In this document: piece by piece, positions 15,866 to 31,419 of the stretch
Numbering within the stretch: the stretch's first letter is position 1
Layout: each line of letters begins with the position of its first letter
IMG/VR virus record: IMGVR_UViG_3300032326_000028
Coordinates: 1 to 31,419 of that record
Length of the DNA stretch: 31,419 nucleotides
Direction: 5' to 3' (one strand)
Source of the DNA: a virus
Program-made: the position numbers and the translations under genes
The notes under the pieces: model-generated
Told to the model about the DNA's origin: nothing
The model's input: only the letters and a program-made list of their open reading frames with translations
Databases searched by the model: none

Positions 15866-15987
15866 AACAATATTTAAGTGCTGCCAGCGAAATTTGGTTG
15901 TTTATTGAGTTTTTAGTGAGAACCGCAATACTATAATGCTTGTGTGTGTGCTGTGTATTACAAGAGCAAATAGATCCTACATATCTC

Positions 15988-17013
15988 TCACATGTCAGCA
16001 TCATTGTCCTCATATATTGTCCACTCAATTCTTATATCAAATCCAGTATTAATTCTCACACATCTCGTCAGTTCCATGATGTCTATTGCTTTGTCACAAG
16101 TCCAGCCATCATGAACAAAGAAGTGTTTAGTTCTTTGTCGTTTCAAGTACTTCTTGATGACATCTGTCACTTGTTGTTCTAACTGATTGTATACTCGCAT
16201 CTTCTTCTTGTCCATTCGTTCTCCTGGATTCAACATCATGCTGGGACGAATGGCACTCCATACTGTTTTGAGTTCTTGTTTGTATTGCTGGATATCTGTG
16301 TGATTATTGATCTCTTTGATCATAAGTGAGTTGTAGTTGACTTCCGCATATATCTGATTACCTACCCATGCTTGAACACGACCTCCATTGAGAATCTTGG
16401 CCAAGATGCTTTTGATCTGTGTGGTACTTAAACCCAAGTCCTGACTTAGCTGTTGTCTGAATTGACTTCTATCTTGTATGATTTGATCCAGCAAGGGTGT
16501 TGCTTTTGCTAGGCCTAATTGACGACTGTGTTGTAATAACAGTGTTAGAGCACAGCATTCAATGTCGTATTCATAGCGCATTTTGTAACGACTTAGTAGA
16601 CTGCGTCTTTGTCGCTTGGGCAAATTTTGTAATCTGTGATAACTTCTGTGGCTTTTTGTCACATATTCAAATGAACCCTCTGTGAGTTCTTGATGTTCTT
16701 GTTCAGTAATCAATTCAGTGACTTTTTTAGTGCCAATGCCCAATATAGTTTTTAGTGCCGCAAGATTTTGTGTGTTGCGCCTATATCTTTGACACACATG
16801 TGCCTGTATGTCATAGTGCTTGTCCACACAGATCAACAGGCTGTCTTTGAGATATCTTGCCAAGGGTCTGCCAATGAATCCAAAATGTTTGGTGATTTGG
16901 CTTTGTGCTATGGGATAGCTTTTGTCTCCCTGTATCCAGCGGTCAATGAATTCAATGGCGCTAACACATCTTTTACGCACACGTGGATCTGTAAAGTTTG
17001 GCTTGTAGGTCAT
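15988..17013 (-). CDS. Putative miniature family-A/T7-type polymerase-like protein
   Basis: 341 aa. I do not recognise a named family, but three motifs appear in the order and spacing of the family-A/T7 polymerase palm. Motif A-like: YEYDIECCALTLL with D150. Motif B-like: K201 followed at +8/+9 by N209-G210, the spacing of K758, Y766 and G767 in E. coli Pol I. Motif C-like: FFVHDGW with H301-D302. D150 to K201 is 51 residues (53 in Pol I). K201 to D302 is 101, shorter than usual. The N terminus (1-140) has a helix-turn-helix-like part (SQITKHFGFIGRPLARYLKD) and no exonuclease domain. It is far smaller than Pol I (928 aa) or T7 RNA polymerase (883 aa). It starts 4 bases after the ExoX-C-like gene. 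It could be a DNA polymerase, RNA polymerase or primase. Catalysis is inferred. Confidence 0.45.
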   Translation of the reverse strand: MTYKPNFTDPRVRKRCVSAIEFIDRWIQGDKSYPIAQSQITKHFGFIGRPLARYLKDSLLICVDKHYDIQAHVCQRYRRNTQNLAALKTILGIGTKKVTELITEQEHQELTEGSFEYVTKSHRSYHRLQNLPKRQRRSLLSRYKMRYEYDIECCALTLLLQHSRQLGLAKATPLLDQIIQDRSQFRQQLSQDLGLSTTQIKSILAKILNGGRVQAWVGNQIYAEVNYNSLMIKEINNHTDIQQYKQELKTVWSAIRPSMMLNPGERMDKKKMRVYNQLEQQVTDVIKKYLKRQRTKHFFVHDGWTCDKAIDIMELTRCVRINTGFDIRIEWTIYEDNDADM

Positions 17014-17017
17014 GGCG

Positions 17018-17200
17018 TTAACGACCTAACTTGGGTTGTCTATAAACTAGTTCTTCAGCAAACCAAGTGGCAAATGCTCTATCCGTGTAATTTAACACAG
17101 CCCATTTGATATATTCAGTGGGCAAGTCTTTGATGTATATGCCTTTATACTTTCCCCAAGGCATTTTGGTATACAAACGTGATTGGTGATCTATTCTCAT
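17018..17200 (-). CDS. Stand-alone ExoX-C/DUF3820-like small protein
   Basis: 60 aa from the ATG at 17200. A GTG at 17251 would add 17 residues but overlaps the upstream gene by 47 bases. The core MPWGKYKGIYIKDLPTEYIK followed by WAVLN (residues 13-37) matches the DUF3820/ExoX-like C-terminal module, whose consensus is F-G-K-Y-K-G, then P-x-x-Y-x-x-W. In bacteria this module is often fused to DnaQ-type exonucleases. Here it stands alone, with no exonuclease active site. It sits 4 bases upstream of the polymerase-like gene in the same operon, so a role with that enzyme on DNA is plausible. Confidence 0.65.
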   Translation of the reverse strand: MRIDHQSRLYTKMPWGKYKGIYIKDLPTEYIKWAVLNYTDRAFATWFAEELVYRQPKLGR

Positions 17201-17204
17201 AGTG

Positions 17205-17609
17205 TTATTTGATATCCCACAAGCGTTGAAAGATTGTGTCTTCTGGATCACGTGCTTGTCTCACTGCGCTCCAAACTTCTCTCAGTGTCATGCTGAGTCC
17301 CCATGCGGTGTGTTTGTATTGTTTGGTGTCTAGTACGCGGGGATGTCCATGGCCCAATCGTTCCAGTGTTTCTGCCGCGTCTTTGATCCATTTGACATGA
17401 AATGTTTCAAAATACTCTGGATGGCGTATCAGCAGTTCACCAATGGCCACTATGACCAAGTACCATTCATGATTGTCCCACTTGTGTAGATAGCCCTGCC
17501 ATAATCTCTCATCATCGCGTTGTATACAACCTTCTGCTTGAAAGATTGCTTCTTGAGTTTCAGCAAAACTTTGCCAAAGGTCAAGTCCTTGTTCAATATC
17601 CGTTGTCAT
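17205..17609 (-). CDS. Early-position protein, unknown
   Basis: 134 aa, the first gene after the strong promoter at 17657-17685, with an AGGAA ribosome site before the ATG at 17609. It is predicted helical and unusually rich in Trp (about eight) and His. Segments include DLWQSFAETQEAIFQAEGCI, NHEWYLVIVAIGELLIRHPE and WGLSMTLREVWSAVRQ. There is no membrane segment long enough to be convincing and no cysteine cluster. First genes of early phage operons often encode host-takeover or replication accessory factors. I do not recognise a family and assign no function. Confidence 0.55.
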   Translation of the reverse strand: MTTDIEQGLDLWQSFAETQEAIFQAEGCIQRDDERLWQGYLHKWDNHEWYLVIVAIGELLIRHPEYFETFHVKWIKDAAETLERLGHGHPRVLDTKQYKHTAWGLSMTLREVWSAVRQARDPEDTIFQRLWDIK

Positions 17610-31108: not shown

Positions 31109-31419
31109 TATGTTGCCCCCCTTAGGTAATTGTACTTGACTTCAAAAGTCACTATGACTTCAGCAAGTGGAGGTTGACGTTCAACAACTTCTATTAGAAC
31201 AACTTGACTGTCTATGACACCTTCTGTTCTTAGTTCTCTATACCTGTCGCCTTCTAATTGTTCTTCTATGCCCTCTATGAGTTCATTGCGACGACGGTCT
31301 AGTTCTGTGCCACGTACATAACCACGTAGTGTATATCTAATGGTGCCCATTCTGCGTCCAACACCACCAATGCCCATGGTAATAGTTTCACGTTCTTCTG
31401 TTTGAACTTGAACATGAAC
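31108..31419 (-). CDS. Tail completion/terminator-like protein, C-terminal part (gene crosses contig ends)
   Basis: Residues 44-146 of the 146-aa protein that begins at base 252. The part within 31297-31419 duplicates the left-end copy. It contains IGGVGRRMGTIRYTLRGYVR (beta strands), an amphipathic helix with RRRNELIEGIEEQLEGDRYR, and a final strand VIVTFEVKYNYLRGAT. The strand-helix-strand order is compatible with the tail terminator fold. Read without closing the circle, a start at 31377 (ATG inside the repeat) would be called wrongly. The stop forms a TAATG junction with the 74-aa gene. Confidence 0.6.
   Translation of the reverse strand, partial: VHVQVQTEERETITMGIGGVGRRMGTIRYTLRGYVRGTELDRRRNELIEGIEEQLEGDRYRELRTEGVIDSQVVLIEVVERQPPLAEVIVTFEVKYNYLRGAT
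31297..31419. repeat. Terminal direct repeat, right copy (circular closure)
   Basis: Identical to bases 1-123. The base before this copy (31296) joins to position 1 in the circular molecule, giving a unique length of 31,296 bp. Confidence 0.95.

Follow-up and report, generated by a model that had tools for sequence, protein, structure and literature searches.

A minimal family-A polymerase fold fused to a winged-helix-like domain, and a 23-bp DNA element tied to its gene, in small tailed phages

INTRODUCTION

How does a small tailed phage start to copy its DNA when its genome shows no familiar replication gene? In many phages of ~30 kb, not a single replication gene can be seen, and the question is raised again by the metagenomic phage record IMGVR_UViG_3300032326_000028, the whole of which (31,419 nucleotides) was analysed here and is referred to as the window. 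A preliminary description of the window, made from the sequence, had singled out a 341-aa product as a miniature polymerase-like protein and the only candidate replication enzyme. We followed this proposal through homologue searches, structure prediction, and comparison of the surrounding DNA among relatives.

RESULTS

The polymerase-like gene lies in a complete phage genome

The window carries a 123-bp direct repeat at its ends (1-123 and 31297-31419), which shows that the genome is complete, being either circular or repeated at its ends. Its clear genes all lie on the minus strand, and head, tail, and packaging functions predominate. When the 35 window proteins were compared with PHROGs, named matches were limited to head, tail, packaging, HNH, and acetyltransferase proteins, the rest being weak and unnamed, so that the earlier statement that no other replication gene is seen holds for what was scanned. 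A PADLOC search for defence genes gave no match. Upstream of the polymerase gene, a 77-aa protein (17018-17251, minus strand) matched PF12843 (E = 5e-8), the part matched being the C-terminal, non-catalytic portion of an exonuclease family; relatives of this protein adjoin the polymerase gene in six loci. The features discussed below are collected in Table 1.

Table 1. Positions of the polymerase-like gene, its domains and motifs, the adjoining DNA element, and the longer polymerases of two sibling phages (window coordinates unless a locus is named)
Feature	Position	Strand	Basis
Polymerase-like protein gene P0001, 341 aa, ATG start	15988..17013	-	ORF listing, alignment, model
N-terminal domain, residues 1-92, predicted winged-helix topology	16738..17013	-	Model secondary structure, pLDDT ~90 or more
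Palm-fingers polymerase core, residues ~98-337	16003..16722	-	Model, fold searches
R123, invariant Arg, beta-hairpin before palm (E118-120/E123-125)	16645..16647	-	68/68; model
Motif A, Y149-D150-I-E-C-C-A155-L-T157, D150 catalytic	16543..16569	-	Alignment
Motif B, K201 with N209-G210 at +8/+9	16381..16425	-	Alignments
Motif C, F-F-V-H301-D302-G303-W304	16102..16122	-	Alignment
A/C-rich tract TAATACACAGCACACACACA adjoining the element	15941..15960	-	Sequence; family base composition
23-bp element AGCATTATAGTATTGCGGTTCTC, candidate priming/origin site, 47 nt past stop codon	15918..15940	-	Sibling and family comparison
Longer related polymerase, G049	L198:4411-6093	-	Motifs YDLSASV / KEVITAVGFGA / HDA
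Longer related polymerase, G015	574-aa frame in L194		Family profile

The protein belongs to a family reached through sibling phages

Searches of the 341-aa protein against Pfam, PHROGs, PDB sequences, GenBank phages, and plasmids gave nothing above chance, and a scan of viral contigs with this single protein returned zero relatives. We reached sibling phages via their terminase subunits and searched their whole records, which yielded eight homologues at 32-47% identity. Searches of viral contigs with an alignment of these eight found 47 loci at first and 78 later; beyond viral contigs, family members occur in one contig assigned to Legionella by binning and on one Janthinobacterium chromosome, and the GenBank phage set holds none. 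In total, ~70 distinct relatives were found, from metagenomic phages, and 68 distinct members, with relatives at 23-47% identity, make up the alignment (A3) used below. As a group, the relatives were likewise without an above-chance match in the same database searches. In a tree, the window protein falls in a well supported branch with those of L100, L102, and L103. The polymerase gene of L105 and L131 is disrupted (frameshift; in-frame stop).

Genes often found near it across the family code for HNH nucleases, for a small protein of zinc-binding type, and for the terminase. In many phages, the polymerase gene has beside it the gene of a small CxxC protein of ~75 aa (L116:5777-6004, plus strand; relatives in 26 loci), which is a possible partner. 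Known replication enzymes are scarce in these records: a DnaB helicase was found in 1 of 50, that one a 101-kb contig, and among the 34 long family records, neither PF00476 nor the D5 helicase (D5_N, PF08706) was found in any, nor did a DnaC-type helicase loader exceed the cut-off.

The predicted fold is a family-A palm-fingers core preceded by a winged-helix-like domain

A model built from the single sequence was useless (pLDDT 38), a problem cured by the alignment of 68 relatives, with which AlphaFold returned a pLDDT of 94.2 and a pTM of 0.86. For this model, the leading Foldseek matches in the PDB were family-A polymerases without exception (probability 1.0 and E = 2e-4 for the best), the closest solved structures being Bacillus Pol I, Taq, T7 gp5, and Pol theta (E = 2e-4 to 1e-3), with mitochondrial RNA polymerases further down the list. 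VIA-align gave Z scores of 12-13 over ~205-260 residues to Pol theta, Pol I, and T7 gp5, many rows covering model residues 94-337, and among the best 50 VIA matches listed, no family outside superfamily A was noted. In a viral structure library, uncharacterised proteins of uncultured Caudovirales came first, followed by virophage replication proteins among others, the named ones including those of the Zamilon and Qinghai Lake virophages. The Pfam model PF00476 (DNA_pol_A) matched nothing in the window or in 33 family phages, with controls positive. We conclude that the predicted fold is almost certainly that of family A and that the protein, which by its fold and catalytic residues is a member of superfamily A, very probably polymerises nucleotides.

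The palm-fingers core anticipated in the preliminary description was thus recovered by the model, Foldseek, and VIA, but the suggestion that the protein keeps nothing else was not borne out, since about a quarter of it forms an extra N-terminal domain. In the model, this domain comprises H10-26, H37-44, H50-59, E60-64, E76-79, and H81-91, and by topology and order of secondary structure, it looks like a winged helix; a few relatives each gave one weak HTH-type Pfam match. The modelled 341 residues contain no exonuclease and no clear thumb, the winged-helix-like domain standing instead. Only short helices (98-101 and 104-112) precede the hairpin in the model, where the thumb of the TV-Pol proteins discussed below consists of two antiparallel helices.

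Catalytic residues are invariant, and the Pol I sugar-gate residues are replaced

All of the residues named in the preliminary description were as given, namely, Y149-D150-I within YEYDIECC, K201, N209-G210, and H301-D302-G-W within FFVHDGW, and the spacing of 51 residues between motifs A and B was confirmed. Twelve positions are identical in 68 of 68 members of A3: R123, Q129, Y149, D150, R186, K201, W252, Y275, E279, H301, D302, and G303. The three residues on which the polymerase assignment had been staked (D150, K201, and D302) therefore show no variation. In an alignment to T7 gp5, K201 corresponds to K522 and N209-G210 to Y530-G531. Position 209 had been considered unusual for its Asn, a view that the family does not support, as N209 is one state of a freely varying position (A in 22 of the 68 relatives, C in 16, Q in 11, N in 10, and others).

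In Pol I, E710 (D+5) and F762 (K+4) exclude ribose. Among the 68 relatives, the first of these positions (D150+5, which is A155 in the window) is A in 64, C in 3, and M in 1, and the second (K201+4) is N in 53, T in 11, and other residues in 4. Since the ribose-excluding residues are replaced, we predict a weak sugar choice or the use of ribonucleotides. The Arg of the RxxxK signature (K-4) is absent in all 68, the Lys being present in every one; the invariant R186, 15 residues before K201, may take the place of the lost Arg.

Two sibling phages carry a longer polymerase at the same locus

The family profile found a protein of 560-574 aa at the same locus in two siblings (E = 3e-16 and 1e-6). 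Motifs A, B, and C are in place in both longer proteins, and the DNA element described below is absent from this locus in both genomes. The longer polymerase of G049 had no match in Pfam or GenBank phages. The occurrence of a small and a longer polymerase at one locus looks like polymerase swapping in a single replication slot.

A 23-bp DNA element is tied to the polymerase gene

Repeats in the DNA were first noticed because C-terminal tails of family proteins repeated a linker peptide. About half of the family has a direct DNA repeat of 14-77 bp, one copy in the interdomain linker and the other at the 3' end of the gene, ~760 bp apart. These repeats share a 23-bp core (gene strand), yATACCCTA[GT]TGTAnyAC[AT][AT][CG]Ty or GCATTATAGTGTnRCGGTTCTC, which ~50 of 70 relatives carry at the gene's 3' end or immediately beyond it, many of them without a linker copy; ~20 of 70 have no recognisable copy in the stretch searched. 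The ten bases before the core, on the side of the A/C-rich tract, contain 4% G across the family. In the window, the element is unique within 3 mismatches and is followed by the terminase small subunit gene. It matches the L100 site at 21 of 24 positions and the L102 site at 21 of 23 (0 of 300 shuffles were as good); against the family-wide matrix, the window copy alone is not significant, as a third of simulated genomes reach its score.

A matrix trained solely on members of <50% protein identity was used to score the whole locus on both strands. In 51 of 71 loci, the highest score was found in one of two windows, that of the linker or that of the 3' end, although these windows make up 7.7% of positions, and 89 sites of >=17 bits were found in family loci versus 0.8 expected. 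Across 11 genomes, nearly all sites were at the polymerase gene, and no genome had more than one elsewhere. Seven near-complete siblings that lack the gene (G003, G004, G009, G014, G015, G037, and G049), as well as DSL-LC06, had no element at the locus, stray matches elsewhere scoring 13 to 18 bits. The element at this gene is new here, and by computation its tie to the gene is strict.

The two copies of one genome are 82% alike over 45 bp (32 genomes), whereas copies at the same position in relatives of 50-97% protein identity are 65% and 62% alike, which argues that the copies within a genome evolve together. On the tree, the linker copy must have been gained or lost about nine times, and firm branches account for at least four of these events. 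The element often stands between the polymerase gene and the next start codon, and the gene downstream varies between phages.

Several explanations for the repeats were tried and rejected. A reason at the level of the peptide is ruled out by the 32 copy pairs, in which the second copy lies past the stop codon in 15 and in another frame in 7, indicating that it is the DNA or RNA that matters. A packaging (cos) site was raised by the adjacent terminase small subunit gene and discarded because the element is kept where other genes follow and is duplicated inside the gene. The likeness to a T7 promoter, striking by eye, was not above background when scored against the T7, T3, SP6, and K11 consensus sequences, and a 9-of-12 match to a sigma-70 promoter at the element was of a kind no commoner than in shuffled sequence. 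Rfam gave no match, and GC skew was inconsistent in the 11 genomes and marked no origin at the element.

Individual loci vary in arrangement. Repeats flank the core at 288 and 1050 in L107 and at 328 and after the stop codon in L165 (gene coordinates), and such flanking repeats are near identical within one phage and differ between phages. L110 has three repeat copies, L135 and L138 have tandem copies behind the gene, and the 3' copy of L139, L154, and L156 is inverted relative to the linker copy. A third element (22.6 bits) was seen in L215 at ~11705 (G064 31705), between two structural genes and 39 nt before a start codon; in the genomes examined, no other site apart from those at the polymerase gene scored as high.

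DISCUSSION

Known systems of the same superfamily

Among the closest known systems is the TV-Pol family of Iyer, Abhiman, and Aravind (2008, PMC2579912), which includes virophage replication proteins and a protein of Microcystis phage Ma-LMM01. TV-Pol proteins and the 341-aa family have in common a minimal family-A core without exonuclease, the invariant hairpin Arg (R123 in 68 of 68), the two palm Asp residues, and the fingers Lys, and virophage proteins of TV-Pol type rank high among the named viral proteins that match the fold of the 341-aa protein. In an hhalign comparison, Ma-LMM01 gp030 aligned over 196 columns spanning the three motifs, with A and B in register (E = 9e-4, probability 22%); judging from its neighbours, gp030, which lies beside a transposase, is probably the TV-Pol of Iyer et al. 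The 341-aa protein lies near that family in the viral structure library and may work like TV-Pol. In contrast to TV-Pol, the 341-aa family lacks RxxxK and the D5 helicase that is linked or fused in many TV-Pol members, and it shows the winged-helix-like fusion and the tie to a DNA element. Because the RxxxK signature and the helicase link are missing, we do not file the protein as TV-Pol.

Two further families are of mobile elements and phages. The CCPol-MP and PolA-SSB primases (PMC7581432, PMC10061031) are also family-A cores of mobile elements that have been shown or proposed to prime, and CCPol-MP too prefers to start within the DNA of its own mobile element, at a site that follows one of the replication-operon genes. 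CCPol, however, keeps E710 and F762 and makes DNA primers, needs its partner MP, and comes with a helicase, while the gate residues are lost here and no helicase was seen. Judged by the aligned gate residues, the 341-aa protein is not a CCPol-type primase. The divPolA2 proteins of barbaviruses and others (Yutin et al. 2024, PMC11348598) are likewise small phage family-A proteins without exonuclease and with an N-terminal domain of their own in place of the thumb; barbaviruses differ in also carrying PolB, and the section of that paper on these proteins mentions no DNA element. Just 43 columns aligned in the sequence comparison to divPolA2 (E = 0.03).

A model for the protein and its element

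The 341-aa protein probably serves replication. Loss of the sugar gate, combined with the adjacent element, favours a priming or initiating role over genome-length synthesis by the protein itself, and on balance, we predict that the element is the protein's site of action. Our joint model, held with slightly better than even confidence, is a one-protein, helicase-free initiator-primase with its own priming site. The N-terminal winged-helix-like domain would bind the 23-bp element behind the gene that encodes it; in about half of the family, it would bind the intragenic copy between the domains as well. Binding would place the C-terminal minimal family-A core at the element, and there, the core would join the first nucleotides and lay down a short primer. 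The primer would probably consist of ribonucleotides or be made without strong sugar choice, because small residues replace those that exclude ribose in Pol I. It would then be extended by the host replisome or, over a short distance, by the core itself. That one 341-aa protein makes the whole start of replication, without helicase or partner, at a 23-bp site that is retained beside its gene, is often duplicated within it, and has its copies homogenised in each phage, is a more tentative proposal, about which our doubts slightly outweigh our confidence.

Parts of this arrangement have precedents. The region behind the T7 RNA polymerase gene is known as the primary origin of T7, and the first promoter after that gene sits 26 nt behind it. 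The SCCmec family-A primase has a preferred start downstream of the operon's helicase gene, at a site that is also bound by the helicase (PMC7581432, PMC10061031). The primase ColE2 Rep binds the plasmid origin and synthesises a short RNA primer there, from which the host polymerase Pol I takes over (PMC4538821); the proposed model likewise has one protein for both tasks, but the fold of ColE2 Rep is that of archaeo-eukaryotic primases, and the likeness is one of analogy only.

Alternatives to an initiating role

One alternative is that the protein is a replicative DNA polymerase that extends host primers and copies the genome, the element being a loading site or a by-product of replication. 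The closest solved folds are indeed DNA and not RNA polymerases, siblings replace the small protein by a longer polymerase, and no other polymerase was found in the family phages. We nevertheless consider this reading unlikely, since the 341 residues offer no exonuclease, evident thumb, or processivity part, nearly all family phages are without DnaB or D5 helicase, and the Pol I sugar-gate residues are gone.

A single-subunit RNA polymerase that transcribes from the element as its promoter would fit the superfamily common to T7 RNA polymerase, the small residue at D+5 (Ala here, Gly542 in T7 RNA polymerase), the mitochondrial RNA polymerases in the lower part of the Foldseek list, and the T7 promoters, which are also 23 bp long and one of which lies just behind the polymerase gene. 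A transcribing enzyme would nonetheless be expected to have sites at many gene starts, and those of the 11 genomes are almost solely at the polymerase gene. The element lacks significant likeness to the T7-type promoters scored, hhalign to T7 RNA polymerase yields no motif alignment, and the position of Tyr639 is Tyr in 0 of 68 relatives. T7 RNA polymerase differs further in its 883 aa and its promoter loop. The Tyr639 position, as aligned, indicates that the protein is not a T7-type RNA polymerase, and transcription as its function appears quite improbable to us.

The element could instead be an operator or attenuator under the winged-helix domain, acting on its own or the next gene, with the core serving repair or being loosely tied to replication. 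A DNA-binding-type domain is fused to the core, the element often precedes the following start codon, and the strong extra copy before a structural gene in G064 would fit a regulatory role. Yet the element stands at the 3' end of the gene and not in front of it, the downstream gene differs among phages, and a near-identical second copy within a coding region is unusual for an operator, so that we give regulation little credence. Finally, a mobile cassette in which the core, flanked by direct repeats, sits inside a winged-helix gene would account for the two flanking element copies, their homogenisation within genomes, and the frequent HNH neighbours, but it is scarcely credible given that no locus has a stand-alone winged-helix gene or an empty site, that the winged-helix domain occurs without a whole core only in two disrupted genes, and that in many members the element is present just once or as two copies of opposite orientation.

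Implications for small phages and for family-A polymerases

If the initiator-primase model is true, small tailed phages of a diverse, unrecognised group would follow a T7- or ColE2-like strategy with a family-A polymerase architecture that is among the smallest. A protein that primes would add a further primase of the family-A kind to the DnaG and archaeo-eukaryotic types, in a simple form of one protein and one short DNA. The family bears on the question, posed by Iyer et al., of the minimum size of a family-A polymerase and on how polymerases of this fold begin chains without a primer. Because it is missed by Pfam, PHROGs, and sequence searches and yet is a polymerase by fold, it offers a candidate for the start of replication in small phages that seem to lack replication genes.

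The Janthinobacterium member (L147:7965-9329, plus strand) lies on the bacterial chromosome close to a phage-type integrase. No recognisable phage structural genes were seen among the ten neighbours scanned, and genes for FG-GAP repeat proteins and a GMC oxidoreductase are found nearby.
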